From contig MJGA01000006.1 of the NCBI GenBank assembly GCA_001910725.1, forward strand, positions 682,001 through 746,000: DNA of 64,000 nucleotides, read 5' to 3'. The position numbers and the translations under genes are program-made. This document shows, in pieces, positions 2,693 to 64,000 of this stretch (positions are counted from its first letter, which is position 1; each line of letters begins with the position of its first letter). The notes under the pieces were generated by a model. That model was not told where the DNA came from and searched no databases. It saw only the letters and a program-made list of their open reading frames with translations. This stretch comes from Phanerodontia chrysosporium. Taxonomy: Eukaryota; Basidiomycota; Agaricomycetes; Polyporales; Phanerochaetaceae.

Positions 2693-5600
2693 TCAAGCGT
2701 ATAAACGCTCCAGGTAGCTCGTCAACGCGGAGAAGTCTAGTTTCCGCCGGTGTTTCAACACCATCTTCTGTCCATGATATCCTTTGATCTCTCGCCAATC
2801 GGTTGGTAGCCAGCATAACCTAGTCCGCTTGGAAGGTGTTATGGAGATGATCCAGCCGTCATCGATGCAGTACATAGGCCATGCACGACATGGTGGCCAG
2901 GGAGGAGAAGTGGCGGATCCCTGTGAACTCCGACGAAGAGGGGCCCAAAGGCGTATGACTCGTCCGTTCTCGTTGACTATAAGGCTTGAGCCGTCGGCAG
3001 ATAAGCGAATATGGTGGTACCAGTCATGCTCTTCTAGCACGAGGAGAGCTCCATGCGTCTCGACATCCCAGAAATATAATGCCCCGTCGTCACAGGATGT
3101 TACGACGATATCCGCCGTAGGAGTGAATGCAACAGATAACACTGGTTGACTATTCCTCGAAAGCTTCTGTAGCAAATTGCCTTCCAGGTTCGACACATGA
3201 ATTTGACCGTCCTCGTCGCCTGACACTACACGGGTTGTGTCGGATGAGAAGGCGACTGAGAAAACAGGCGCAGTGTGTCCTCTGTATCTAGTCTGAGACT
3301 GTCCGCTGGTCGCGTTGTGGATGATGACAGTGTTGTCCGCAGAGCCGGTCACGACGCGTTCGCGGTCGAGGGAGAAGGCCACGCAGAGCACGGGACCGTC
3401 ATGTCCTGGAAATTCGCGCACGGGTCTTCCCTCTACGACGTCCCACATCCATGCAGAATTCTTCGGCCATGCGGATTGTGTGTCCGACTGTTTCAGCACA
3501 GCAGGGACAGAGCCAGAGACGAGGTATCGACTGTCTTGCGAAAACATCATGGATGAGGAAAAGCCGCCAAAGCAGTGGGGCATATAACCCAGGACAGCAC
3601 TCCACATGAGCATGCTCGCTGGACGAGGATGCGCTCCTTCGCGGTACCAGCTACCCAACTCGCCAGGCTCCCGCATGTGGTGACAGATCCCCGCAAATTG
3701 GACGCGGCGGGCGCCGGATGCGGCGTCCCAAATCTCCATCTTCTCGCACTCTTGCCACGTAGAGGCCGTGAGGATGACAGTACCATCTGGAGAAAACGCC
3801 GCACAACGAGGGCCCATGGCAACGTGCAGGGGCTCGTATACGCGGTCCCAGTTATCGGTCTTCTCTACCTCGACCTCCAATTAACGCAAACCTCCAGGAC
3901 GCGGCTACCGTCGTGGGAGAAAACTGACGAAACGCAGTCGAAAGAGGGCCGATCGGAGGGGCTCAGCCTGTGTCCATTGTATCCCGTGTACTCTGGTTGC
4001 GCAACATTGGCCGCGTGCTGCTCCGCGCTCCATAGCCGAATGGTGCCGTCCCACGAGCCGGATACGATACGAGTGCTGTCCGGACTGAAGGCAACGCAGC
4101 GTACCGTGTCCCTATGACCAGCGAACATCTGCCGGAGCTCACCACGCTCCACGTCGAGCACGACGACAGTATTGTCATGCGAATCACAGGTGAACACGTC
4201 CCCATTCTCTGAGATATCCATGCAGTTGACACTGATATGCGGCCATCCTGACGGCTTCAACCTGCGTAGATATTTGAGAGCCTTGACGTCCCAGGCTGCC
4301 AATTGCCCGACAAATCCGTAGCTTGGGCCTGTCAGAAGCTCGGAGCTGTCCGGCGTGAAGGCAAGCGTATACTTGGTGATTCCCCTCGGCTTCAGATTAC
4401 GACGGGTGTAGGGAGGGCGTAGATTCCAAACGAAGATCTCCTTAGATGAGCTCGACGCCATCCATTGACCGTCCGGGGAGACTGTGACACAATGAACCCC
4501 ATCCTGATGCTCCATTAGCGTGGCCAAACACGTTCCTTTGCGAGCGTCCCATATCCTGACGGAGTGGTCGTCCGAGCCGGAGATAATACGATGGCCATCA
4601 GGCGTGAAGACTGCACAGTGTACAGCACGAGTATGGCCTTCGAAGGTGCGGATGAGCACGCCGGACACGGGATCCCAGATCTGGACTGTCCCGTTGATGT
4701 GCGCGGAAACGACACGAGTGCCATCCCGAGAATATCGAGCAGTGGTGAAGAAGGACCCAATCCCGCGTCCAGGTACCGCCAAGAGCAAGGTGCATGTTAG
4801 CGCGTCCCAGAAGCGCATCATGTTGTCCCGTCCGCATGAGACAATCGTTTTGCCGTCAGGTGAAAAGTCCACGTCTTCAAGCCACTTGCCCTCGTGCGCA
4901 GTTACCGTAGCCAGGGAGGCACTCCACAAGGCAGGTACTCCCCCAAGGACTCGGACAGAGGTCTCCGGCGAGCACTCGCTGGAATAGGGATCTCGCGCAA
5001 ATGAAGTCTCTTTTGGCACAAATGGGAGGATGGAATGGTAAAGTTGCAGCGCCGAACTGCTGATGGCAGGGAAGAAACCGATGATAAGGCGTTCACAGTC
5101 ATTCAGGAGAAGAGCTATCTTGCGAGCTCGTGAATTGCCGGACTGCTACGCATGAATGAACATGGCGACAACCTCTTTCAACCTGATCGTGCACTCACAA
5201 GTAGGATGCCCTGAGCCTCATTAAGACTCGGTATGACGTCCCGAAGCACGCCAAGCAGACTACAAGCCTCGATCCAATGAAGTAGCCTCTTCTGTGCGAA
5301 ACCCAACAGGGCCCCAAGAATATGGTCCGACAGGGCACCGTGTGATAAATGTGTAGTCCAATGTCGGCAAGCGTACCTGAGAGATGGGGGTATGGCCTGC
5401 TCGATGCGTTTTGGAAGATCGGGAATCTCACAGTTGAGAAGGGAAGGATCCCTGATGTCGCAGATATCTCTTCTCAGGTCGCGCAAAGCATGCAAACATC
5501 CGTAAAGAAGTAGCGTGTGCTGCTGCCGAGAGTCGACCACGAACGACCGGCTCGTGCAACGGCTGGGATCGAGGAGAAATTCCGCGAATGTGGGGTGAAT

Positions 5601-7703
5601 AATACTCACGTTCGAGGAAGAGTCCTCGAACGCCGGAACGACAATGACGGAATGCAGGCCGTTCAAGGAATTGTACACTGCCTCAGCGGATAGTCCGACG
5701 AGTCGAGCGAGGCCCGGACAGGAAGTTGATCCTTGATGACGACGATAGAGCCAGAACGGACTTGATCCTACCAGATAGACCCTTGGAGATGCTAGGAAAC
5801 GCTGTGTCAAGTAGCTGCTGGTAGAGATGATCCAACAATTGGTGCGCTCCGCGCGAGCCTGTGGCCGAGGTGAGAGCCTTGAGTTGTCCGATCGGATCGT
5901 TGTAGTTTTCGTCCTCAATAAATCTGACTGCGGTCGCAGCAAAGATGAATAAGCCATTGGCCATGTCGCTCAGCGTCTGCACATCGGCCTGGCTAGGCCA
6001 GGACTGGGGCAGCCTGAAGCGCCTGCGTGTCTCCGAGAGCGACGTCCTCAGGTAACGGCTGATATCCTCGGTGACCGACTGCAAGGCTACTTCATGCAGA
6101 AGCAGCCGCCCGTGTGCATTGCGATAGTCGGGAGTGTCGAAGCTTGTGACGATGTGTCTCTCCGGACGGCTGGTAAGAAAAAAGCGGAGTGGATACACGT
6201 TTTCCGCGTGCTTCAGCAAAGTAGACAGGACCGCAGATGTGACTTGGGCGTCGTGGCATTCGTCCAGGGCATCTATTACCACGATACATCCTGGGAAACG
6301 ACCACGTAGTTCTGTTATGGGCTGTAGGATGAGGTGCTCGAATTGCCGAGATACGCTGGAGTACACCAGGAGCGGATCCTTCTTCAGCTCGTCCGCCACT
6401 TTGTCTCTGAACGGCTGGAAGAATAGTCCCAGTTGGAAGGCGATGGTGGTAAAGATCATCGAAGGGCTGCTGCAGTCGCTGTCTGACCGTGAACAAAAGA
6501 AGCTCGCGCCAAGGACGCCTTGGACGTGGCATCGCTCAGCGACCGTGTAAGCGATAGTCGTCTTGCCAGTACCGGCCAGGCCATTGACCCAGAAAATCGC
6601 AGGTTGGTCGCTGGTAGTGGAGTCAAAGGTGGCGCGAGTCATACCGTGGCGCCCGGCAAGGCTGAGTTGCGCCCACGAGTAGATACTCTCCAGCGTCCTG
6701 GTCCGGGTGCCCTCAAGGCAAGCTATACGCTCGGGGCGACAATCAAAGCGTGCGGATACTGCGTAGGGCGGCACCGTTGGACCTAATGGCATACATCAGA
6801 TTGGCGATCATACTTCATCTGGCATATAGTACCTTCTGGACGAGATAGCATTCTCAGACGCTGACGACAACATTAGGTCAAGGCATGCTTGGACAATCAA
6901 CAAAATCTTACTTGAATGTCGTCTTGAATTACGTCTAGCTTTCTCGTGACACTCTGGTATCTCTCCTTGGAAGCGCGGGCTTGGTCCTACAAACGTTCGA
7001 ACAAAGTCAGCGCAAATGGGTTTAATTGGTAGCCATTCTCGACACACATCCAGTGCGTATTCGATTGCTAGAGTGCTCTCCACCTACCAATTCACGCTCA
7101 ACTCGTCAACAACCGCAAGCGGACAGATAATGAAGAGCCGCACCATAAAACTCTGTATAGACCATGATAGCTTCTGAACATAGCTGGAAATCTTTTCCGC
7201 TTCTTCGTCTGCTTTCAAGATCCGTACGAGCTTGTTTCGCGATTTGAGATCCGCCGCATCGTCGCTGATAGCTTTCCACGAGCTATGGAGGAATGAGCAC
7301 GACTAGGGTACCTGTAGGCAGCAGATAGAGCTCACGATAGCAGTCGGTCGATCCTGGCCTGCATGGGAGCCGTGATCCGGGAGCCATGCAGCTCCGAACA
7401 GTTCTTCACCATTGCAGTCAGATCCTCGATCTTCTTCGTTAAACACTCGACTTCTCCACTGTTTCCATGTGCTTTCTGGCGCAGCGGCGTAAGTGCACAA
7501 CTTCGTTCACGGGCTATGCACAAGCCTACCTGCATCATCGCGAGGAGCGTCGACAAGCAGGCAATCCCGTGCTGTAAGCCTGGGACCCCGAGGCTGCCTG
7601 CAACGCCGCGAAACGCGTCCAACGCGTGCTGCAGCCCGGCGACGGCGACGTAAGCGGCATCCTTGCCCTCGTTGCTTCGCAACTTCTGTTTGAGACTACG
7701 CAT
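2693..7703 (-). CDS. NACHT-WD40 STAND protein (fungal NLR-like)
   Basis: Start chosen at the ATG at 7701-7703. A helical N-terminal domain (about 200 residues over several small exons) precedes a NACHT NTPase with Walker A GLAGTGKTT and Walker B IVVIDALDEC, then a helical arm, then two blocks of about seven WD40 repeats each, running to TGA at 2693. Fungal members are tripartite sensors linked to non-self recognition and programmed cell death; the WD propellers bind the ligand. The WD blocks join through a 44-nt intron at 3865-3908. At 5732-5771 a conserved stretch (RIKSVL...IVVIKDQLPV) can be read only with two one-base gains, yet the same 40 bases can be removed as a GT-AG intron that restores frame. 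Whether the gene is functional depends on that point. Confidence 0.85.
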
Positions 7704-49544: not shown

Positions 49545-50840
49545 TCCCTCGACAACGCCGACATTTACAGCCGCTCGCAAGCTGCCACCTCTGGATAGCT
49601 GGGACCACCCGTAACATCGCGCACACAACGGGCGCATACAGGTCTTTGCGCACCCGCACCGAGACCTTTGCGCACTGAGACCTTTGCGCACCGAGACCTT
49701 TGTGCACTGAGACCTTTGCGCACCGAAGCCTTTGCGCACCGACCGACGACTTTGCGCACTGGCTGGAACAGCAAGAGAATTGATCTCACCCTGAAGCCTT
49801 TGTGTGCAAAGCAAGACGCAGCCTGGAGAAGCAGCGACTGTCGCAATGCTCGCGCCCCATTCCCGCACACCCCGTTCCCACATCCCTCGACGACCCCAGC
49901 ATCCCGAGTCATTGCGGCGCTCTGCGCCCTGCTGCTTGCCCCGGCTAGCTGTCCCCCTGATCAGAATGTCCGGGGAATCCTTCAACAGGAATGGCTCGAA
50001 CGCCTTCGCGGAGGGCGGGGGCTAGTCGTGGTCGGGGTGGGTTCTTGTGCTGTGTTGCTGCAGGTGCGTGGTATCCTTAACCATTGTTCGCGTTGTCTTT
50101 CTAACCTCTGTAGCCTCAGAAGCGTGCAGTGTATACTGCCTCATGCCGCTGTAGCCCCGAGCCCTCAACGATACCAGCGTCCAGAGCCATACCTACCCTA
50201 TGCATGGCTCCTGTTCACCGTAGGGGAAGCCAGCCCGGGGCTTGGCGATGCTGCTCGACGCCACTCACAACAACACGAGCAGAAGGTGGCCTGGCCTCTG
50301 CACCTTCTGCTATGTGACCACCCGCACATCCGCATATACCTTGTGGAACTCGCAGGTCAACAACACCGACATGTTCAGCCGCTCGCAAGCCGACTCATCC
50401 ACTGCACACGCTGCGTAAGACAGCTCGCGCTGTAGGAGAAGCTGAGCTCGAACCCTGCCCGCACTACTCGATTGCACTCTGGGCAGGGACTCTGACCACA
50501 GCCCTGCGATCATTCCTCGTGCGCACTCCTGCATTGTTGTACCACCCGTAGGGACATCACTAATATGACACATGCCCAGTGGTCTTTGTGCGCCAGGCCT
50601 TTTTGCATCGAAGCCTTTGCGCACTGGCCGAAACAGCTCGAGGACTCATCCTACCCAAAGCCTTAGAGCGCGCACCACTCGAAGCGACTATCATGAGGCT
50701 TATGCCCCGTTCCCGCATCCCGCATCTCTCAATGACTGCAGCATCGTGAGCCATTGCACTCTGCGCACTGCTGCTGCCATGCGAGCGGGATATTCAGAGG
50801 GCACTAGGCTCACATTCTCGCTGATTGACAAGCTGTCATA
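49545..50840. repeat. diverged duplication in non-coding DNA
   Basis: Segments around 49545-50000 and 50350-50800 share diverged blocks in the same order: ACAGCCGCTCGCAAGC versus TCAGCCGCTCGCAAGC, TTTGCGCACTGGC plus GAACAGC, AGCCTT, CCCCGTTCCC and GCGCTCTGCGCCCTGCTGC versus CACTCTGCGCACTGCTGC. A partial third copy lies near 50150. No coding pattern is visible. It may be a relic of an old tandemly duplicated element. Confidence 0.6.
49661..49740. repeat. 16-bp minisatellite, five units
   Basis: Five 16-bp units of GAGACCTTTGCGCACY fill exactly 80 bases, with two to three variant positions, flanked by degenerate copies on both sides. Units are direct, contiguous and without spacers, so this is a simple minisatellite. 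Confidence 0.9.
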
Positions 50841-52854: not shown

Positions 52855-54374
52855 TCAGGGCGCTGGCGCTGAGTGGCCAGGCGCTGAGTGTGGGCGGCTA
52901 GGACTCCAGACGGCGCGAGGGCTGCTCGCCCGTTGGATTAATCGAGGAAAATAGCCAAAAATCGGCGAAAAATAGGGCAGCACCGTCACATCCGTGACAA
53001 ACGGTGCAAAGAAGTCATGGATTGCCCGGGACGGCTTCAAACCATTCCGTGAAGCCATTGCTGGTACTGTTGAAGCGCTCTCTGCGACGTTCGAGCGCAT
53101 ATCAAATGGCACCTGCATTGAGTGCATCAGCAACACAGTCGCAGCATAGTGCCAGGCTGCATATACCTTCACTGTCACCGCTTCGTCTAACCTCCGTCTC
53201 TTCAGATTGCCAGACGCAATTGAGTTGCTCAGGTCCGAATGAGCAGAGTGCGACGGTCTGAGGGAGGTGGCGCCAAGCTGTGCTTCGCCCAGTGGCATGT
53301 CGGTGGCTTTTCGCTTGACCGATGGTACCGCGGAGTCGCCCGAACGAAGTGGCGAGGATGATGCAGGAAGAGGTGGTGGTGATGCTGACCCAGCTATAGT
53401 CAGATCCTGTATGCGCATGAGATAACAGTGAGAAGTTAGCCAGGAGATGCAACAACTGAACGCACCACGAAGCATATCTTCGTAACTTGTGCTGGCCTTG
53501 CGCCTGCCAGCGCGGCTTGCGTTGACGCTTCCAGAGCAGGCTCTGACGGTGACTCTGCCCGCACTTGTTCAACTGGTGCCTGCGAAGCCCCAGTCCTGCC
53601 AGTCACCTCAAGCACATCGAGCGGCACTTGTGCTTGTGTGGGTTCAGTCGGCTGTGCTGGTGCAGGTCGCTCATTATCGCTGCGAGATGCTAAACCGGAG
53701 ATGGATGGTTGGCGTGCGCAGCTGGGTGGAGGTGATGCTGGGACGGTGATCTGGGTACTTGGCGGTGCAGCTGGTGCATGCGATAACGCTGGGGCAGCGA
53801 TCTGGACATTTAATGATGCAGTCAGTGCGCATGTATGCGGGAATGCAATGGATGCTACCATGTAATTGGATATGCACACCGGTGCGCTCGCTTCTTGTGT
53901 CTGCTCAATCACAGGTGGGTCTGGCGGGGTGGGCAAGCTGTGGGCGGATTCCAGGGAGGGATTGGTAACCGCACGTGCTGGTGCAGGTGCACCCTCTCGT
54001 GCAGCTTGAATAGACCCTTCAGGCACCAAGGTTAGTTCGGGGTCGATATTCATCTGAAGCAAGGCCTTCTTCAGCTCGAGCTCCTCAAGAGCAATGGCAT
54101 CTTGGCAGGACTCGTCTCCACCAGAATCTTCCTCGTCGAGGGACTCCTCCTTGATTGCAATCGCATCGTTGAATGCCGACAAAGCGCTTGGCGAGAAGAC
54201 GAGCCCGAATGACTCATCACTAGGGATCTGAGCAAGGGTATCTGCCTCACGCAAGCCATCGCCGGGCTTGCGCGCCTTGCTATTTGCGATGATGCTGTTC
54301 CACAAGGTGTTGGTGCCGTTAACAAGGCCGACGTGATGCGAACCGAACGCGGAGGCCGCAAATGGGCGCTGCGG
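52855..54374 (-). pseudogene. C-terminal part of a transposase-like gene, cut off by the retrotransposon
   Basis: Directly left of the left LTR the frame reads QRPFAASAFGSHHVGLVNGT and SDESFGLVFSPSALSAFND, then an acidic and Pro/Ala-rich tail. Introns near 53385-53450 and 53104-53160 lead to nuclear-signal-like KRKATD and LKRRRLDE and a last exon ending at 52855. The first codons continue exactly the frame left open at 62475 on the other side of the element. Related mushroom proteins have a similar FGSHHI.LV block after their catalytic domain. Without its front part this segment has no start codon of its own. Confidence 0.75.
54370..54374. repeat. left target-site duplication TGCGG
   Basis: TGCGG directly before the left LTR (TATCAC...) is repeated at 62475-62479 directly after the right LTR (...GTGACA). 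A 5-bp duplication is normal for Ty3/gypsy integrases. Confidence 0.92.
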
Positions 54375-54974
54375 TATCACAAAAATGCGCTGCCCTAGCG
54401 CCTATACACCAAACCAACCAGCAATACTCACTGGCAAAGGTTTACTTGGACTACAAAGGGTGTAGCCAGGCTTGAAGACGAGGTATAGAGGCTAGAGAGG
54501 TGAGATGCGATGAGATTGAAGCTGGGGAGGCACCCCCAGCCCTCAGGGTTTATATACATGTGCACCAGGTCCCCAGGGACCGGTGTTCAGGGTCCTAGCT
54601 ATCTAATACCTACTACGCTATTGGCTAGTGCCCTACAGGCATTCCTACATTCTCCTACACGTTCCTAAATGTTCCTACGATGTCCCAGAAACCTCCAGAA
54701 CGTTCCAGCACTGTCCGGACCTGTCCAGAGACCTCTAGGGCTTTCTAGTCCATTCCGGAGTGTCTCGGCGCTTCCAGACCCTTGCCTGCTTCTAGACCTT
54801 CGACCATGTGACCCTGGGATACCGCACGTGTGCGCATCACGTGACCGCCGTATCACGTGACCAGCCCCGAGCCTAGGGCTGTCACTCCAGCGCTTCTGCA
54901 TGTCACAGTTCGGAGTAATCGCTTCTGTCACCTGCTGCCCCTAACCCTAAGGGTTAAGACGAAAAACTGTGACA
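54375..54974 (-). repeat. 3' LTR (left copy)
   Basis: 600 bp; on the element strand it begins TGTCAC and ends GTGATA. Carries the same TATA box, CACGTG motifs and telomere-like palindrome as the other LTR. I compared it line by line with 61875-62474 and saw no difference. Confidence 0.96.
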
Positions 54975-54986
54975 TTACCCCCAATT
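54975..54986 (-). other. polypurine tract
   Basis: On the element strand AATTGGGGGTAA abuts the 3' LTR, the position of the plus-strand primer. It is short and interrupted by TAA next to the LTR. Confidence 0.6.
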
Positions 54987-55009
54987 CTAGCTGAACCTCC
55001 TGGTGAAGC

Positions 55010-58000
55010 CTAAATACCAGTGGAGCCAAAACCATCGCTGCTGCGAATGGTTGAGTCGAGGCGAGAAACCGGAGTTGGTTCGGCGTAGGAGATTCTTTCG
55101 AGCACGAGTTGAGCGACACGATCACCCTTGTGGAATGTAAAGGTGTCGGGCGAGTTGTTGATGAGTAGAATTTTGAGCTCTCCTCGATAATCTCGGTCAA
55201 TAACGCCTGCTCCTATGTCGATGCCTCTGAGGCTGAGGCCACTCCGTGGTGCGACTCGAGCGTAGGTACCTGGTGGAGTACACATTCGAAGGCCCGTTGA
55301 CGCTAGCTTGCGATCATGGGGCTTGAGCGTAAGGTCTTCCGTGATGAAAAGATCCAACCCTGCACTTTCTGGCGAGCCACGTGAGGGGAGTTTTGCGTCC
55401 TTGTTCATGAGCTCGACCTCGAACTGGTCGTCTGCTCCCCAAGATTGGAGTAGCGCGAGTTCGCGCACGAAAAACTCATCCTCCTCGTCGTGGTGGCGTT
55501 GCAGAAGGGAAATTGCCTTCGGCGCATCTGGGTATTTCCTGTGGAATTGTTTGACCTTCGCCATAGCGTGCTTGAGATTGGGCAAGTATTCCCATGTGTC
55601 GCTATGCTCATCGTAGCCTCTCCACCGTACTCGGTACATAACACGGCCTTTAGAGTCTGGCTGTGCATCTACGATCTGCTCGACCTCGTACTCCTCGTCA
55701 TCACCCACACGAATGGGTGGTAGGGGTTTGCGCGTGCGATTGGCAACCTCATCCTCGACGTGCTTCGTGAGCTTGCTTGCGTGGAAGACCGGGTGAATCT
55801 TCACATGGGCTGGTAACTTCAGCTTGAAGGTGACCGGTCCCAGCTGCTCTACGATCTCGTAAGGGCCTACTCGCTTTGGTGCCAGTTTCTTGGAGGGAAC
55901 CCGAAGGTTCAGATCCTTTGCGTCAAGCCAAACACGGTCTCCGACCTTGAACAAGGGTTCTGATTTACCCTGGTCGTAGTACCACTTCATTCGCTCTGCA
56001 GCCAGCACGAGCGCGGCTTTCGCCTGATCTTGGGCCTCCTGTCTAAGCTTCGTCCAGTCGTCCAGTTCTGACAACCTTGTAACACGGTCCTGCTCTGGGA
56101 ACATGCGTGGATGACGGCCATATTCGACGAAGAATGGCGAGTTCTTGGTGCTTTCATGCGCCTGGTTGTTGTACGCAAACTCGGCAGAGGGCAAAAGGTA
56201 CGCCCAGTCGTCCTGCCTGAAGCTTGTGTAGCAGCGCAGATATTGCTCCAATGACTGATTAACTCGCTCAGTCTGACCGTCTGCCTGAGGGTGAAACGCT
56301 GTAGTCATTGCTGACTTGATCCCCAGGAGTCTGCACCATTCCTGGAAGAGTTTCGCGGCGAACTGCGTTCCTCTATCCGAAATGATCTGTCTGGGTAGGC
56401 CGTGCAAAGGCCAAACACGCTCATAGAGCAAATTTCCCAGATCCTTGGCTGAAAACTCCTTGGTGATGGGGAGGAAATGTGCTCGCTTGGTTAAGCGGCA
56501 AACGACTACGAAGATAGCGTTGTAACCGTCCGACTCAGGCAAGTCCGTGATCATATCGCATGAGATTATCTCCCAGGGTTCCGACGGAACCTCGTTCGGT
56601 TGTAGCAGGCCAGCAGGCTTCTGGTTGACGTTTTTATGCGACTGGCAGACTTCGCAGCCTGCGACGTACTTCTTGACGTAAACTGACATTCCTGGCCACC
56701 AGTAGTTGCGCGACAGCAACTCCAACGTCTTCCATCGTCCAGGGTGTCCAGCCCCAGGGAAGTCGTGGTGTAACTTGAGTAGATCCGCCCTAATCTTGTC
56801 GTCCTTGGGCACATACACCTTGCCTCGGTGCAGTAGTAGCCCGTCCTCGAGGTGCCATTCCGCTAAGTCCTTCCCGAACTCTCTTGGTCCTTTCAACATC
56901 AGGTCTTTGTACGACTTGGTGACTTCGTCGTCCAGCAGGGCTTTTCTGATCCTTTCTAGCAGTTTGCTATCGTCCACTATCGATGAATGGGTTGGTTGCA
57001 TGGCTCGAATCGCGAAATATTCTGGCTTCAAAAGGACTTTTTCACGATTGTCGCAATCCACCCCCAATTCATGATCTGGCCTCCTGGACATTGGATCAGC
57101 CCGCTTCATCGTCTTTCCAGGCTTGTGCTCCAACTTGAAGTGGAAACGTGTGAGGAAAAGACTCCAACGTGCTTGGCGTCGCGTCAAGTCTTGCGCCTTG
57201 CGGAAATAGGTCAAATTCTGGTGATCTGACCATATGTCGAATGGTAGAGGGTGTCCCTCCAAGTGGTGGCGCCATTCCTTCAATGCGCGGATGATGGCTA
57301 GCATCTCCTTGTCGTATATCTCGTAGTTGCGCTCATGTACGCCTAGCGCCTTGGAGTAAAACGCGACAGGGTGCCAAAGGCCATCCTCGCCCAGTTGCTC
57401 AAGTACAGCCCCCGTAGCAAAGTCTGACGAATCGCATTCGAGCCTAAAAGGGTGCTCGTCGTCTGGAATCTTGAGAATAGGCGCAGTAGTGAACGCTCTT
57501 TTGAGTGTATCGAAGGCATCCTGCTGCTCAGGCCCCCATTCCCACTCTTTGCCTTTGCGGGTAAGCTCTGACAATGGGCGAACAATCTTGCCAAAGTCTC
57601 GAATAAACCGTCGGTAGAAGTTAGCAAAACCCAGGAAAGCCTGGACATCTTTGACCCTTTTGGGTATGGGCCAAGATAAAACGCCATCTACCTTCGATGG
57701 ATCCATCTGAACCGACCCCTTGCTGATGATCATTCCGAGGTATTCAATGCTATCCGTCTCGAAGAAGCATTTTTCTGGCTTAGCGAACAGGTCATTGTCG
57801 CGTAGCCGCTGCAATACCTCGCGAACTAATCGCCGATGGTGGTCCAAGTCATTCGTGAAGATGAGAATGTCGTCTAGGTAGACCATGACATGCCCTTCTC
57901 GAATCAGATCGTCGAGAATATGGTTCATCATGCGCTGAAAGGTTGCTGGTGCATTGCTGAGGCCGAAGAACATCACTGTAGGTTCGTATAAACCGAAAGG

Positions 58001-59167
58001 TGTGATGAAGGCCAGCTTCCACTCGTCTCCTTCCTTGATTCTGACGTTGTTATACCCCCATCTAAGGTCAATCTTGGTGTATATACTAGCCTTAGATAGT
58101 CGATCTATAAGGTCTGAGATCTTGGGTATAGGGAAGCGGTCTTTCTTAACGACTTCGTTCAGCTTTCTGTAGTCCTGCACCAAGCGCAATGAACCGTCCT
58201 TCTTCTTCACGAAAAAGACTGGTGCTGCCAGCGGGGATTTACTTGGTCTGATGTATCCCTTGGCGAGATTCTCCTGAGTCCACTCGTCCAGAGAATTCCT
58301 CTCTTCTGGCGACAGCGAGTAATTACGAGCTGGTCGAGGTAGGGTAGCTCCGTCGATAAACTCGACAGCGTGGTCGTAAGGCTTTCGTACGGGTAACCGT
58401 TCGCTTGCACGCTTCGAAAACACGTCCCCATAGTCTTGATACTGTGCAGGGACAAGCTGCTCCCAGCCCTCGATTCCCTCCAGCGAACGAATACTGCACA
58501 TCGCTGCGATCTTCCGGCAAGTTAATGCCAAAACGCGGCCATCTGGGGTGGAAGGGTCGACCCACTGGAGCCAAGGCTCCTCTTCTTCCTCCTCGAAGTC
58601 CTCATCCATAGGTTCTTCGAGCTCTGCTTGCGCTACTTGAGCCTTGTGGCTGGTAAAGCGACAAGAATCTGGGCATCTGGAGTACTTCCACTCGCCCTTA
58701 TCCCAATCTATCTCGGGATTATGCTTCTTCAAGTAGCTAAAGCCGAGGAACATGTCCTTTCCACCCAGATCTGTAATGAGGCATGCTTGTCTGGAGACAT
58801 GGTCCCCTACGGCTACGTCGAGCCAAGCGTACTCCTCAATACTGCCACACTTGTTCCTGGAGCCATCTGCGTTGTAAACGCGTATCTCCCTGGCCAGCTG
58901 GTTCGTCTTCAGCTTATGCTTCCTGACGAAGCGATGGCTAATGAACACAGCATAGGCCCCTGAATCAACCAGCGCGGTAGTCTGCACTCTGATTTCCTTA
59001 CCCTGACTCAAAGTTACTGGAACGATAAAGCTCGATTTAGAGGGTAAACTAGAGACTTTTCTCGATTCCAAAACTGATCTAATACATTCTACTGAGTCGG
59101 GAGGGTAAAGGAAATCTAAAAACGGACCAGATGTCGCAGACTCTACATCGGTCCCTGCAGAAAATCC
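55010..59167 (-). CDS. pol: retrotransposon Pol: PR-RT-RNase H-IN-chromodomain-dUTPase
   Basis: Residues are counted from the codon at 59071; the frame is open upstream to 59167 in the -1 frame of gag, and no ATG opens it. Protease ALVDSGA (about 34-39). RT has YTKIDL (Asp 335), FGLSNAPATFQ and VYLDD (398-401). RNase H has LECDSSDFATG. Integrase has the zinc pair H-H (769-776) and C806-x2-C809, then Asp in SCDMI (839), ISDRGTQF (899) and Glu in GQTERV (935). A GPYEIVEQLGPVTFKLKLP module precedes the chromodomain (1128-1180, YEVEQIVDAQ...YRVRWRGY...WEYL). The dUTPase fills 1219-1353. The polyprotein is unbroken over 1,353 codons. Confidence 0.96.
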   Translation of the reverse strand, partial: GFSAGTDVESATSGPFLDFLYPPDSVECIRSVLESRKVSSLPSKSSFIVPVTLSQGKEIRVQTTALVDSGAYAVFISHRFVRKHKLKTNQLAREIRVYNADGSRNKCGSIEEYAWLDVAVGDHVSRQACLITDLGGKDMFLGFSYLKKHNPEIDWDKGEWKYSRCPDSCRFTSHKAQVAQAELEEPMDEDFEEEEEEPWLQWVDPSTPDGRVLALTCRKIAAMCSIRSLEGIEGWEQLVPAQYQDYGDVFSKRASERLPVRKPYDHAVEFIDGATLPRPARNYSLSPEERNSLDEWTQENLAKGYIRPSKSPLAAPVFFVKKKDGSLRLVQDYRKLNEVVKKDRFPIPKISDLIDRLSKASIYTKIDLRWGYNNVRIKEGDEWKLAFITPFGLYEPTVMFFGLSNAPATFQRMMNHILDDLIREGHVMVYLDDILIFTNDLDHHRRLVREVLQRLRDNDLFAKPEKCFFETDSIEYLGMIISKGSVQMDPSKVDGVLSWPIPKRVKDVQAFLGFANFYRRFIRDFGKIVRPLSELTRKGKEWEWGPEQQDAFDTLKRAFTTAPILKIPDDEHPFRLECDSSDFATGAVLEQLGEDGLWHPVAFYSKALGVHERNYEIYDKEMLAIIRALKEWRHHLEGHPLPFDIWSDHQNLTYFRKAQDLTRRQARWSLFLTRFHFKLEHKPGKTMKRADPMSRRPDHELGVDCDNREKVLLKPEYFAIRAMQPTHSSIVDDSKLLERIRKALLDDEVTKSYKDLMLKGPREFGKDLAEWHLEDGLLLHRGKVYVPKDDKIRADLLKLHHDFPGAGHPGRWKTLELLSRNYWWPGMSVYVKKYVAGCEVCQSHKNVNQKPAGLLQPNEVPSEPWEIISCDMITDLPESDGYNAIFVVVCRLTKRAHFLPITKEFSAKDLGNLLYERVWPLHGLPRQIISDRGTQFAAKLFQEWCRLLGIKSAMTTAFHPQADGQTERVNQSLEQYLRCYTSFRQDDWAYLLPSAEFAYNNQAHESTKNSPFFVEYGRHPRMFPEQDRVTRLSELDDWTKLRQEAQDQAKAALVLAAERMKWYYDQGKSEPLFKVGDRVWLDAKDLNLRVPSKKLAPKRVGPYEIVEQLGPVTFKLKLPAHVKIHPVFHASKLTKHVEDEVANRTRKPLPPIRVGDDEEYEVEQIVDAQPDSKGRVMYRVRWRGYDEHSDTWEYLPNLKHAMAKVKQFHRKYPDAPKAISLLQRHHDEEDEFFVRELALLQSWGADDQFEVELMNKDAKLPSRGSPESAGLDLFITEDLTLKPHDRKLASTGLRMCTPPGTYARVAPRSGLSLRGIDIGAGVIDRDYRGELKILLINNSPDTFTFHKGDRVAQLVLERISYAEPTPVSRLDSTIRSSDGFGSTGI
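55013..55417 (-). other. dUTPase domain fused to the Pol C-terminus
   Basis: All five motifs of homotrimeric dUTPases occur in order and spacing: AGLDLF (about 1238-1242), APRSGLSLRGI (1274-1284), GVIDRDYRGELKILLIN with the catalytic Asp (1289-1305), GDRVAQLVLERI (1316-1327) and RSSDGFGSTG with the uracil-capping Phe (1343-1352). It should hydrolyse dUTP to dUMP and lower uracil incorporation during reverse transcription. About 38 residues, partly acidic, link it to the chromodomain. It is the last domain before the stop at 55010. Confidence 0.95.
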
Positions 59168-60723
59168 TCATCGTCTGAGAATACCACGCGGTTAATCTTC
59201 TGCGCCTTCTCCTTCGAAGACGACTTCTTCTTGTGCTTGGTCTTGGGGGTATCTTCTTCTTCTGAGCTATCTGAGCTCGATTCCTCGTCAGAGGCTACCT
59301 CCTGGAATCTCTCCGAGTCACTGGCGTACACCTCGCGCACGCTGTTCTTCGTGTGGCGAGAGCCCTTATCCTTCTCCTTTCCCTTTGAAGGCGAAGCCTT
59401 TGACGAACTGGCCACCGGTGCATTGGTGGTTTTACTCGACGACGTCGAAGAACCTGAGTTGTTCTTCTTCGATGGACACTCCTTGGCGATGTGGCCTTTG
59501 CCTCCACACTGAGCGCAGCAGCCTTTCTTCTTCGCCTCCTCGAACGACATGGCAACCTTCTGAACTTTGGCTGTCTTGCCTTTACCCTGGGCTGAGCCCT
59601 TCTTCAAGGCGTCGACATCCATAGCGTCAGGGTCTTTCGACGACTGAGGCTGTCCAGAGAGTACGGTGCCCGTCAAGAGACGTTGATCCTGCAGAATCTC
59701 CTGAACATCCTTCAACCAACCATCCCAGGTCGTAGCCCACTGAGCACGACCACGGGCTGCCAGTACATCGGCGGCGGCACGAGGGGTATGGGCATAGGCT
59801 TTGACCAACAGTTCCTCGTTGGAGAAGCCAGTTTGGCGAGCCAGCGAACGGAAACGAGCAGCAAATTCATTGAAAGTCTTCTCGTTCGTTCCTTTCTTGC
59901 TGACAAGCTGCTCAAACTCTGCCCTTGCCCTGTCCTTCTTGTCGGTCTGTTGGAATCCTTTCTGGAGTTCGTTCACAAAGTTGGTCCAAGTACCAAGGGG
60001 CTTTGAGTCTGCCACCTTGTCGAAGTACTCTTGCATGACCTTCTTTGCTGAACCTCGCAGGTAAGTCATCGCCGTCTCTATCTTCTTTTCGTCGTCCATT
60101 ACGCCACGGTGGCGCAACCAGAGTGCCATCGACTCGAGCCAGTCATCCAGCTTACTAGCCTTATCACCATTAAAGGTGTCAGGCTCCTTCATGGTAGGGA
60201 ACAAAGACTGAGACAACCCAACGTTGCCTCCACTAGTGCCTTGCTGAACCAACACTTTCAAGCTCTCGTTCTCCTGCTTCAGCACCTGCATAGCGTTCTG
60301 CAAAACGCGATTTTGGTTCTGAGCCTCTGCTATCTGCGCAGACAAGTGCTGTCTAGTCTGCTCAAGAGTGTCTATCTGCTCCTGAAGTGTCTTGGCCTCG
60401 GTTTTGCGTTTGCGAAGGGCTTCCTTCAAGCGAAGGACTTCTGAACCCATTTCCGACCTTACTTGAGCTATCTCAGCCTTTACCCAATTACCCAGGCTGT
60501 CAACGAGGGCCTTGAAGTCGCCAGGAGTCAGTCCTTCCTGAGCGGCTTGTACCCATGACTGGCTGTACTCTTCGTAAGAGGTCGAAAGCGGCGCAGCGGC
60601 CAAAACTGGGGTAGGGCCTCCCTCAGCCATAGAGCCGAGTTCTAACGCTCCCCAAGGGTCCATACCACTTGAACTCGCAGCAGAACGCAAACCAAAGTCA
60701 ACAGGATTTGAATTGAGCGACAT
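59143..60723 (-). CDS. gag: retrotransposon Gag
   Basis: ATG 60721-60723 (MSLNSNPVDFG), 526 residues. A long coiled coil (about 90-170, LRLKEALRKRKTEAKTLQEQ) precedes the capsid-like Retrotrans_gag core (FNGDKASKLDDWLESMALWL, WTNFVNELQKGFQQTDKKDR, FNEFAARFRSLARQTGF). One zinc knuckle, CAQCGGKGHIAKEC (C-x2-C-x4-H-x4-C), is followed by a lysine/serine-rich acidic tail. It builds the particle and binds the genomic RNA. It overlaps pol at its 3' end and ends at TAG 59143. Confidence 0.94.
   Translation of the reverse strand: MSLNSNPVDFGLRSAASSSGMDPWGALELGSMAEGGPTPVLAAAPLSTSYEEYSQSWVQAAQEGLTPGDFKALVDSLGNWVKAEIAQVRSEMGSEVLRLKEALRKRKTEAKTLQEQIDTLEQTRQHLSAQIAEAQNQNRVLQNAMQVLKQENESLKVLVQQGTSGGNVGLSQSLFPTMKEPDTFNGDKASKLDDWLESMALWLRHRGVMDDEKKIETAMTYLRGSAKKVMQEYFDKVADSKPLGTWTNFVNELQKGFQQTDKKDRARAEFEQLVSKKGTNEKTFNEFAARFRSLARQTGFSNEELLVKAYAHTPRAAADVLAARGRAQWATTWDGWLKDVQEILQDQRLLTGTVLSGQPQSSKDPDAMDVDALKKGSAQGKGKTAKVQKVAMSFEEAKKKGCCAQCGGKGHIAKECPSKKNNSGSSTSSSKTTNAPVASSSKASPSKGKEKDKGSRHTKNSVREVYASDSERFQEVASDEESSSDSSEEEDTPKTKHKKKSSSKEKAQKINRVVFSDDEDFLQGPM
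59161..59167 (-). promoter_or_regulatory. gag-pol -1 frameshift heptamer GGATTTT
   Basis: In the gag frame the site reads G GAT TTT, and the -1 frame (GGA TTT TCT) leads straight into pol. The pol frame has a stop just upstream (TGA at 59170-59168) and gag stops at 59143, so the shift must occur within about 25 bases and this is the only slippery-type heptamer there. GGAUUUU is the known site of dianthoviruses. Confidence 0.7.
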
Positions 60724-60752: not shown

Positions 60753-61565
60753 CTAATCGAGGTTCTTCTCCAAAAACAACCAATCTTCACCCAACTCCTG
60801 AATCAGCTCCCTGCAATGCTCAGCGAAGCGTGGCTTAAGCTCAGCGAAGCTATGTGCGCCTGCCTTCTTCAAATCCCTCGAAATCTTCTTCCACTCCCTC
60901 GTGGTGTACTCCTTCGTCTCGACGATGGTCTGAAGGTGTTTGCGAATGTTGTCGAACCTCTCCTTGAACAAGCCCAAGGTGTAGAGTTCGTGTTCAGTCA
61001 ACCCAACTCGAAAACGCTGCTCGTCTAGCTTCTGAAAGAACGGACCCAAGTGGTTAAGGGCGCCGTTGAACTTTCGTCCGTAGTCGCGCAGCTGATGGAC
61101 CTGAGTGTTGGTGTGAAAGCGAAGGTCTTTGGGAATGGGTTTGACTTCGATAGGGGGAGTAGGGGGAGGTTCAATACGTTCGATGAGGGGTAGAGGGGGA
61201 GGGGCGTTCGCGATGCGATCGAGTAGGCGGCGCTTGCGCTGTTCGTTGCGATAGTCTTCGAGCTGAAGCTGGTGCTTGAAGTCGTTCAAGTCTGCTTCAC
61301 GAGCAAGCCTTTCACGACGACCAGGGACAGGGGTGTAGGGTGTAGTGCGAGGTTTGTACGCAGGGCGCGGCTTCCCAACGTCTTTGAAGCGGTGAAGGTT
61401 CGAGATCTTGATGCGCTCAAGCAAGGGTTTGCCAGAGCTCTCGTCCTTAGCAAGGACAAAACGGTTCCTAGCAGCTTTAGGCACTAGTAAACACGGGTCA
61501 GCCTGTGTACACAAGCCAGAAAACTTCTCCACACAGGCAAAGCGCAAGGCTTTCCTGCCAGCCAA
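60753..61565 (-). CDS. extra frame upstream of gag, unknown function, no ATG
   Basis: 270 codons without a stop, ending 30 nt before gag. The content looks coding: basic N-terminal half (RPAYKPRTTPYTPVPGRRER), a charged helix (DFKHQLQLEDYRNEQRKRR), a proline-rich spacer and a helical C-terminal half (QLRDYGRKFNGALNHLGPFF, FKERFDNIRKHLQTIVE, ELIQELGEDWLFLE). There is no methionine codon in the frame. It must be entered by splicing from the leader or by non-AUG initiation. A splice acceptor TGTGTACACAG|GCTGAC ends at 61504. I do not recognise the family. Confidence 0.6.
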   Translation of the reverse strand: MAGRKALRFACVEKFSGLCTQADPCLLVPKAARNRFVLAKDESSGKPLLERIKISNLHRFKDVGKPRPAYKPRTTPYTPVPGRRERLAREADLNDFKHQLQLEDYRNEQRKRRLLDRIANAPPPLPLIERIEPPPTPPIEVKPIPKDLRFHTNTQVHQLRDYGRKFNGALNHLGPFFQKLDEQRFRVGLTEHELYTLGLFKERFDNIRKHLQTIVETKEYTTREWKKISRDLKKAGAHSFAELKPRFAEHCRELIQELGEDWLFLEKNLD

Positions 61566-61861: not shown

Positions 61862-61872
61862 AGCTTCAATCT
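61862..61872 (-). promoter_or_regulatory. putative self-priming primer-binding site
   Basis: On the element strand AGATTGAAGCT lies 2 nt inside the 5' LTR end. It is an 11-nt perfect complement of AGCTTCAATCT at 62013-62023, the predicted first bases of the transcript. No tRNA-type TGG start is seen at this position. Confidence 0.75.
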
Positions 61873-61874
61873 TC

Positions 61875-62474
61875 TATCACAAAAATGCGCTGCCCTAGCG
61901 CCTATACACCAAACCAACCAGCAATACTCACTGGCAAAGGTTTACTTGGACTACAAAGGGTGTAGCCAGGCTTGAAGACGAGGTATAGAGGCTAGAGAGG
62001 TGAGATGCGATGAGATTGAAGCTGGGGAGGCACCCCCAGCCCTCAGGGTTTATATACATGTGCACCAGGTCCCCAGGGACCGGTGTTCAGGGTCCTAGCT
62101 ATCTAATACCTACTACGCTATTGGCTAGTGCCCTACAGGCATTCCTACATTCTCCTACACGTTCCTAAATGTTCCTACGATGTCCCAGAAACCTCCAGAA
62201 CGTTCCAGCACTGTCCGGACCTGTCCAGAGACCTCTAGGGCTTTCTAGTCCATTCCGGAGTGTCTCGGCGCTTCCAGACCCTTGCCTGCTTCTAGACCTT
62301 CGACCATGTGACCCTGGGATACCGCACGTGTGCGCATCACGTGACCGCCGTATCACGTGACCAGCCCCGAGCCTAGGGCTGTCACTCCAGCGCTTCTGCA
62401 TGTCACAGTTCGGAGTAATCGCTTCTGTCACCTGCTGCCCCTAACCCTAAGGGTTAAGACGAAAAACTGTGACA
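61875..62474 (-). repeat. 5' LTR (right copy)
   Basis: Promoter LTR of the minus-strand element. U3 holds three CACGTG boxes (62325, 62338, 62354) and CCCTAACCCTAAGGGTTAA at 62438-62456. A splice-donor-like CCA|GTGAGTATTG lies at 61931, about 92 nt after the predicted start of transcription. Confidence 0.95.
62023..62056 (-). promoter_or_regulatory. TATA box and predicted transcription start of the element
   Basis: TATATAAA on the minus strand at 62056-62049. The A at 62023 lies 33 nt downstream, the usual spacing, and begins the 11-nt self-primer sequence. Confidence 0.7.
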
Positions 62475-62479
62475 TGCGG
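62475..62479. repeat. right target-site duplication TGCGG
   Basis: Matches 54370-54374. One copy restores an open reading frame across the empty site. Confidence 0.92.
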
Positions 62480-64000
62480 TCGAAGGCTATCGGAGCGGTG
62501 AACAAGGCGAAGGTTGCGCCGCAAAACATGATCATGGCAAAGGTAAGTCATGTTTTCGATGCCGGACGCAAACGACCACTGAAGAGCGTTCCATTCACGA
62601 TGTGTTCCCTCGACTCGACTGCCATCACATGCGATATCTTGACGAGTTCGCTCCAGGCAGCCTTTCGTGACATGTTTGAGCTGCTCCGCATGCGCCTGGG
62701 GTCAAGAACACATGAATAGATGTATAACAGCGTCAATGAGTAGCATCACCTTTGGTGCAGCTGCCGACCATACACCTCCTCGAGCTGACCATTTGTCGTA
62801 GGCGGTTTGAAGCATTTCGGCCTGGGTCGTGCAGTTGCGATACTTTGCAGGTGCGTCCTTCGACGCGCGCTGTTCTAGGATGCAATCAACGATCTCTCGT
62901 CCAACGTCCTTGTAGTGGGGATTTCGGACGCCGTTGAGTACAGCAGCAAGGTATCTGTGGGCCAAGATTTGTCGCTGTACAGCAGATTGATATATGGTTG
63001 ACGAACCTTTTCTTGAAGTGATACACATCTAGTTTTACCTCCATGGATGGTGCTGCACGTTGTACAGCCGATCGCACGCTACAGCACATGTCGCTGATGG
63101 ATGTTTCGGGGTCCGGGACACCAAGCTGCCGGCATCGACGAACTAGTCCTTCGAGCATCTCTGAGACCTCGGCACCAGCTTGCGACTGGCAAAAGCGCTG
63201 TATAACGAAGTAGAAGTGTGAGTTTGCATACACTTTCTGAGGCAAGTCAAGTGTACACACCCAGGTAATGATCTCGTTCTCTTCATTGATCGCGCTGAGC
63301 AGCCCTCCTTTCATTGGGGCTATGCGGCTGCCCCTCTTGTCGACCACGACAGTAGCTTTCTTGGTGAGCTTGAAGGTGGCGTCCATAGAAAGGCAGATGA
63401 CAGGCAGGGTGCGAAGGTACTGTTCAGACTCGGCTTGACGAGTGCGAGTGGTGAACTCGGCATACAAGTCCGTGATGAGGTCATCTGAGATGACGTCGAG
63501 GCCATATCCGTCCGGAGCGTATGGGTCAGAGAATGGTCGGGGAAATACGCTGTGTAGGACCTGAGCATTTGAGTTGATGCGCACGTCGAGATGGCGGTAG
63601 TACTCGAGCTTCGTCCTATGGTACTCTAAGAGATGTAGCTCTGCCAAAACGATGTCAGCTCGGAATAGAAAACTGGACATGAGGACACATACGCCTGATA
63701 TGTTCAGCTAGTCCGGCAGCGGTGGAGGATGGTCGAAGTTGAACGACCAGGTTGTAAAGATTCCGCGTCACCGCGCTCCGCTTAAAGAAGTGAGGTACCT
63801 CGCCTATTTTTTGATCAGTCAGTCACTGATACTCCTAGCCTAAATGCTTGCTACATACGAGGGATTCCCCAGTAGTGAGTGTTCTCCCAGAACTCGGGGC
63901 TCGTTGTCGCAAAGCAGTACTGAACACGGCCTCGGCGCTCGCCCTTCGACTGCTCTTCGCACGCCTTGCACCTCATTTGGTAACCAAGCGCGGTCTCTTC
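62475..64000 (-). pseudogene. N-terminal and core part of a transposase-like gene, interrupted and partial
   Basis: From the right edge: MRCKACEEQSKGERRGR with YCFATTSPEFWENTHYWGIP (zinc-ribbon-like), HFFKRSAVTRNLYNLVVQLR, then ELHLLEYHRTKLEYYRHLDV, a first acidic site LSMDATFK, RGSRIAPMKGGLLSAINEEN, FCQSQAGAEVSEMLEGLVRR, a second SISDMCCSVR and LDVYHFKK. After introns come RYLAAVLNGVRNPHYKD, AYDKWSARGGVWSAAA, HVTKGCLERTRQDIACDGSR with a third acidic VEGTHREWN, then HDHVLRRNLRLVHRSDS up to the insertion. This is the layout of a D-D-E-like nuclease in a family common in mushrooms, not assigned by me to a named superfamily. The gene start lies outside the window. Confidence 0.7.

Follow-up and report, generated by a model that had tools for sequence, protein, structure and literature searches.

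A chromovirus family of Phanerodontia chrysosporium with a dUTPase domain at the carboxyl terminus of Pol

Fungal LTR retrotransposons that carry a dUTPase within Pol have been described before, and the domain does not always lie at the same place. In Postia placenta, the element PosPlaTy3-4, published in 2010, has its dUTPase at the C-terminal end of Pol, PosPlaTy3-3 has it at the amino terminus, and PosPlaTy3-5 has it between protease and reverse transcriptase (RT) (PMC2864245). The same paper cites dUTPase elements of Phanerochaete chrysosporium and Tuber melanosporum as earlier finds and states that elements seem to have acquired the domain independently. The betaretroviral dUTPase has been called similar to that of fungal chromoviruses (PMC2774666), a dUTPase lies between protease and RT in elements of rotifers (PMC5408684) and planarians (PMC6431247), and dUTPase and retroviral protease domains are enriched in Entomophthora muscae (PMC11105155). 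An earlier note on the DNA analysed here had left open how often a fusion of Pol and dUTPase has been described. This question can be answered in part: fungal fusions are in print, one of them C-terminal (PMC2864245). Because PosPlaTy3-4 has been in print since 2010, the fusion itself is not new. Our search, with subscription journals mostly outside it, found no later paper on a C-terminal dUTPase in fungal chromoviruses. What is added here is that, in an RT-RNase H tree of dUTPase-bearing elements, those with a C-terminal dUTPase form two clades, that a recent host origin of the domain is unlikely, and that the same genome holds a many-copy relative free of dUTPase.

The window, by which we mean the whole stretch of 64,000 nt that was analysed, contains on its minus strand a complete 8.1-kb Ty3/gypsy chromovirus, the representative of what we call family A. 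Its features are as follows.

54370-54374, no strand: target-site duplication TGCGG, 5 bp, pairing with 62475-62479
54375-54974, minus strand: 3′ LTR, 600 nt, without any difference from the 5′ LTR
54975-54988, minus strand: purine-rich AGAATTGGGGGTAA ahead of the 3′ LTR, a candidate polypurine tract by its position
55010-59071, minus strand: pol frame, 1353 residues as listed, open from 59167
55013-55417, minus strand: dUTPase domain, residues 1219-1353 (PF00692, E 7.4e-38), ending one residue past GFGSTG
55418-55534, minus strand: chromodomain-dUTPase linker, residues 1180-1218, modelled as partly helical with low confidence
55535-55690, minus strand: chromodomain, residues 1128-1179 (PF00385, E 1.5e-11)
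55760-55942, minus strand: Tf2-1-like SH3 domain of integrase, residues 1044-1104 (PF24626, E 2.8e-18)
56288-56800, minus strand: integrase, residues 758-928, by Pfam zinc finger at 758-814 (PF17921, E 4e-20) and core at 831-928 (PF00665, E 5.8e-10)
57143-57538, minus strand: RNase H, residues 512-643 (PF17919/PF17917)
57725-58210, minus strand: RT, residues 288-449 (PF00078, E 1.7e-34)
58724-58984, minus strand: aspartic protease, residues 30-116 (PF13975, E 3e-07)
59143-60723, minus strand: gag frame, 526 residues (Retrotrans_gag PF03732, E 4.3e-08; CCHC knuckle PF00098, E 0.0068, sub-threshold)
59161-59167, minus strand: GGATTTT, where the pol frame opens inside gag, a candidate -1 frameshift site
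60753-61565, minus strand: extra open frame upstream of gag, 270 residues, without a match in a Pfam search
61862-61872, minus strand: candidate primer-binding site for self-priming, 11 nt, lying 2 nt internal to the 5′ LTR
61875-62474, minus strand: 5′ LTR, 600 nt
62013-62023, minus strand: LTR complement of the candidate primer-binding site, at the predicted RNA 5′ end
62049-62056, minus strand: TATATAAA, a TATA box, with the predicted RNA start 33 nt downstream
62475-62479, no strand: target-site duplication TGCGG, pairing with 54370-54374

The Pfam domains follow the order protease, RT, RNase H and integrase, with a chromodomain behind integrase, and the paired LTRs are bounded by a 5-bp target-site duplication, as in 18 of 20 other copies of the element (exceptions, L027 and L028). 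Domain order and LTRs thus support the description, given in the earlier note, of a Ty3/gypsy chromovirus with a C-terminal dUTPase. The note had also claimed a single frame from protease through chromodomain into dUTPase; this was borne out by the frame at 55010-59071 and the Pfam order, and its placing of the dUTPase at 55013-55417, as residues 1219-1353, was correct in coordinates and frame. The TTG "start" of the pol frame reflects the convention used in listing open reading frames, and the frame truly opens at 59167, in the -1 frame relative to gag. The exact string around GGATTTT was found in 19 of the 20 other copies, L026 being the exception. This heptamer resembles the betaretroviral G GAU UUA and is a candidate frameshift site. 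Both gag (piN/piS 0.092) and the extra frame upstream of it (piN/piS 0.17) are intact in 16 of the 20 other copies.

Elsewhere in the window, a frame for an NPHP3_N/NACHT-type ATPase followed by WD40 frames (2693-6792, minus strand) belongs to a gene that is probably split by introns and that we take to be fungal NLR-like. A 264-residue frame adjoining the insertion (62886-63680, minus strand) gave a sub-threshold match to a MULE transposase (E 0.034), and two short diverged direct-repeat families, of 43-48 nt and 77-81% identity, have copies about 0.8 kb apart at 49549-50656.

An 11-nt stretch, bases 3-13 beyond the 5′ LTR, is complementary to LTR positions 452-462, which lie 33 nt after TATATAAA. 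The predicted RNA 5′ end is therefore complementary to a site adjoining the 5′ LTR, as in Tf1/sushi-type elements, and we take this layout to be that of Tf1-type self-priming. In the predicted fold of the leader RNA, the 5′ end pairs with the candidate primer-binding site. A complement of at least 11 nt arose in 4 of 3000 dinucleotide shuffles of the LTR, and none of 1340 20-mers from the rest of the element gave a complement longer than 10. The identical complement is present in the window element and in all 20 other copies, an agreement that counts as one observation because the copies are near-identical.

The profile check that the earlier note had proposed for residues 1219-1353 gave a clear answer. 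PF00692 matched residues 1225-1352 over profile positions 2-129 of 129, scoring 129.7 bits where the cut-off is 22 (E 7.4e-38). A phmmer search of solved structures returned 79 distinct sequences at E ≤0.001 (best E 1.5e-39), and most of the best 60 of these 79 are named dUTPase. The match is far beyond chance. An AlphaFold model of residues 1110-1353, made from a 47-row alignment (mean pLDDT 76.3, pTM 0.54), had a dUTPase core with pLDDT above 90; chromodomain and linker were weaker. When this model was compared with the PDB by Foldseek, the best 50 of 261 rows at E ≤0.001 were dUTPases without exception (50 of 50), and the predicted monomer has the dUTPase fold. On an alignment with cellular dUTPases we read AGLDL, PRSGLSLR, GVIDRDYRG, GDRVAQLV and R-SSDGFGSTG, which we take to be dUTPase motifs 1 to 5; all five, including the Asp in GVIDRDYRG and the Phe in SSDGFGSTG, are where the earlier note had seen them. 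Motif 5 reads R-S-S in the window, versus R-G in most of the aligned rows, and the catalytic Asp and the motif-5 Arg and Phe are all kept. In sequence and in predicted fold, the domain thus matches an active dUTPase.

The genome searched comprises 39.0 Mb in 145 contigs. In a dUTPase search in which the best 150 of 189 candidates were scored, 78 of these 150 had the profile span of the window family, 2-129, which served as a proxy for membership, and 33 of the 78, the window included, had the full 1385-codon open frame. The 20 copies referred to above were fetched from the 32 other full-frame copies. All 20 have a gap-free pol without stops; since the copies were picked for an open frame, the absence of stops reflects the selection of the sample, which did not select against amino-acid changes. 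The LTR pairs of the 20 copies are 0-5 substitutions apart, with at most one gap. Silent diversity between copies is about 4%, and their own LTR pairs are nearly identical. This pattern suggests that several source lineages have been active and that constraint has acted through many rounds of transposition.

Across the 21 pol frames, piN/piS was 0.063 for protease, 0.030 for RT, 0.051 for RNase H, 0.070 for integrase, 0.175 for the SH3 domain, 0.160 for the chromodomain and 0.113 for the dUTPase, with 0.074 for the whole of pol. The variation in the dUTPase is purifying. Together with the open pol of the copies, this argues for a recently active family rather than a single odd copy, and the window element is a recently inserted member of this many-copy family. 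That the dUTPase might be a neutral passenger or an artefact of assembly has nothing in its favour beyond the fact that the element lies in one assembly, and we give the idea almost no credence: it is opposed by the 78 matches with the family's span, by the 21 aligned copies with their dUTPase ratio of 0.113, and by protein P0001 from a separate dataset, whose C-terminal domain is 90% identical.

A second alternative is that the domain is enzymatically inactive and is kept for another reason, for example trimerisation or folding of Pol. A role of that kind has been proposed for the inactive but needed relative in bovine immunodeficiency virus, a case that is in print (PMC4261571). The constraint on the dUTPase is weaker than that on RT, RNase H and integrase, and 4 of the 21 copies (L011, L012, L019 and L026) have changes in or beside the motifs, both of which fit such a role. 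Against it, the five motifs with their Asp, Arg and Phe are kept, and the string GVIDRDYRG is identical in 21 of 21 copies. We regard an inactive tail as unlikely and favour an active dUTPase.

Derivative elements also occur. In L041 (G000:C53:77500-82700) and L042 (G000:C72:2000-7210), 621 nt with no long frame stand in place of element positions 3741-5367, from the end of protease through RNase H, and gag and an integrase-chromodomain-dUTPase frame are kept. Frame lengths of such derivatives occur in 15 of the best 150 of 189 dUTPase matches (647 in ten, 604 in five), with the breakpoints observed in 2 of the 15. Selection on the derivatives' own integrase-dUTPase frame was first read from a low piN/piS. 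Because derivatives differ from full copies no more than copies differ within each group, shared descent or template switching explains the low ratio equally well, and we draw no conclusion from it.

An RT search of the genome yielded, among the best 150 of 385 candidates, 66 rows at 84-100% identity to the window element (40 of them at 100%), 31 rows at 68-71% and 53 rows at 64%. Two copy ends of the 64% family, namely the flanks of L022 and L017 as assigned to the family by position, stop about 45-50 residues past the chromodomain and have no dUTPase. A many-copy family without the domain means that not all chromoviruses of this host need it. Elements with and without dUTPase coexist in many copies in one nucleus.

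Database searches listed 50 matches to the window dUTPase region, the best 120 of 3576 to the domain alone, and the best 120 of 239 to the chromodomain-dUTPase part of a second family, family B. Named element matches came from basidiomycetes such as Phanerochaete, Phlebia and Rhodonia. Among the matches listed, 101 proteins or frames had RT or integrase, and in these the dUTPase was C-terminal in 13, between RT/RNase H and integrase in 9, before protease in 5, between protease and RT (or before RT with no protease seen) in 73, and ambiguous in 1; the labels were drawn from BLAST hits with two or three queries, and incomplete proteins may carry a wrong label. Another 173 of the dUTPase matches listed had no RT or integrase match, 124 being short and 49 longer, copia-like ones included. 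Family B (L029) has a C-terminal dUTPase and is 71% identical to family A in RT and 57% in dUTPase. L030 and L031 have the domain between protease and RT, as does L033, which is broken. P0002, P0003, P0179 and P0186 bear a chromodomain, and in them the dUTPase sits behind RNase H and ahead of integrase, where nonprimate lentiviruses have it; this place is absent from the fungal positions described in the available text of PMC2864245.

Two trees of the elements were built, an RT tree of 93 rows, which gave long-branch warnings, and an RT-RNase H tree of 34 rows chosen from it. One clade, with support of 99/95 (RT) and 100/99 (RT-RNase H), unites the window element with P0001, P0172, P0171 and family B. 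The C-terminal elements P0199, P0241, P0185, P0174 and P0182 fall in another clade, together with P0175 and P0180, in which the dUTPase lies before RT. A single clade of all 10 C-terminal rows was rejected on the RT-RNase H tree, at a cost of 106 log units (p-AU 2.7e-58). The loop before motif 3 has 7 residues in all five members of the first clade and 8 in 6 of the 8 other C-terminal rows, that is, in every row readable. This agrees with two C-terminal clades, although a loop of 7 is no unique mark, being found also in L030, L031, P0219, P0190, P0002 and 25 of the 124 short proteins (fragments of the window family among them). One origin of all C-terminal fusions was thus rejected, although one gain with later moves in between might formally account for them.

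The dUTPase tree of 98 rows has a weak backbone, with 35 of 95 inner branches open. The window domain groups with P0001, P0051 and P0053 (100/100), family B groups with P0171 (100/99), and these two clades are not joined. In an AU test on 69 of these rows, the set having been reduced by 10 copia, 5 long-branched and 14 protease-RT rows, families A and B as one dUTPase clade were not rejected (p-AU 0.394; with P0172, 0.128). The trees hold only elements found through their dUTPase, and the timing of gains versus losses is therefore beyond them. It is likely, though the trees do not prove it, that the ancestor shared by families A and B already carried the domain.

The host has a dUTPase gene of its own, from which the window element could have captured the domain recently and privately. 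An earlier genome search for this gene returned only element copies among the 150 matches listed, and the pattern TTYGGNWSNACNGGNTGGCNGC for host motif 5 had no match in the genome. A search with a host-type motif-3 pattern gave one match, at about 787 kb of contig C1, where a gene with at least three introns by eye was found. Two other elements look like candidate recent captures: the dUTPase of P0195 stands beside the host gene (98/83) and that of P0186 beside ascomycete genes (97/89). The host dUTPase itself groups with Wallemia (99/93), with the window domain outside this group; holding window, host and Wallemia together was rejected marginally (p-AU 0.033 on the 69 rows, for groups named after the tree had been seen). 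Ahead of motif 3, the host enzyme has a loop of 8 residues versus 7 in the window domain, and the C-terminal arrangement is common to family B and three database elements. A recent private capture is therefore very improbable, and from the sequences compared it is unlikely that the window domain was copied recently from the intron-bearing gene of the host. The earlier note had proposed that this fungal element captured a dUTPase, to be dated by a tree with host fungal dUTPases. The outline of that proposal is right, but the capture is neither this element's alone nor recent, since family B, P0001, P0171 and P0172 share both the arrangement and one RT-RNase H clade with it, and the window domain does not group with the host gene.

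In related lineages the dUTPase lies ahead of protease, between protease and RT, behind RNase H but ahead of integrase as in lentiviruses, or after the chromodomain. Whether it is a movable cassette in chromoviruses like that of the window, with a C-terminal place that arose at least twice and with occasional replacement or addition of a host-type domain, seems to us an even question.

Taken together, the anatomy, the copies and the purifying variation show a complete, recently inserted chromovirus with a bona fide PF00692-type dUTPase closing its Pol, and we think the account that follows quite probable. Its RNA would start in the LTR 33 nt after the TATA box, and the first 11 nt would fold back onto the site just behind the 5′ LTR and prime cDNA synthesis. 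A -1 shift where gag ends would yield Pol, which would be packed as Gag-Pol, and the anatomy makes transport of the dUTPase within Gag-Pol plausible. In or near the particle the enzyme would convert dUTP to dUMP, leaving less uracil in the cDNA and a smaller loss to uracil-excision repair before insertion, which integrase and chromodomain would carry out; the C-terminal position would leave the motif-5 arm free. Lowering dUTP during cDNA synthesis is the most likely role of the domain, which the shared ancestor of families A and B would already have had and which would not have come recently from the host gene. For retroviruses, the rationale given is that dUTPase is needed in non-dividing cells (PMC2427051).

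The known picture of retroelement biology is unchanged by these results, but they show that the C-terminal fusion known from Postia is no isolated curiosity. What the family offers is a many-copy, apparently recently active fungal system for asking why retroelements keep a dUTPase, in which relatives with and without the domain share a nucleus alongside the host's cellular dUTPase gene. With the self-priming chromoviruses of the Tf1/sushi group, the window element shares a predicted RNA 5′ end that can pair with a site close behind the 5′ LTR, and an SH3 domain and chromodomain on integrase. Unlike the window element, Tf1 itself is not known to have a dUTPase, and retroviruses with a dUTPase are not known to have a chromodomain.

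The closest described element is PosPlaTy3-4, a basidiomycete LTR element treated with the chromodomain-containing Gypsy elements; compared by description, it has the same C-terminal dUTPase of Pol as the window element (PMC2864245), and its sequence was not identified among the database matches to the window dUTPase region or family B. PosPlaTy3-3 and PosPlaTy3-5 are likewise fungal LTR elements with a dUTPase and differ in its place (PMC2864245). The bdelloid elements Juno, Vesta and TelKA are retrovirus-like and carry a dUTPase, but have it between protease and RT and have no chromodomain (PMC5408684). Retroviral dUTPases are made from Gag-Pro or Gag-Pol, and some endogenous retroviruses have the domain C-terminal to integrase; betaretroviruses differ from the window element in having it at the gag-pro junction, fused to nucleocapsid, and nonprimate lentiviruses in having it between RNase H and integrase (PMC4531489).
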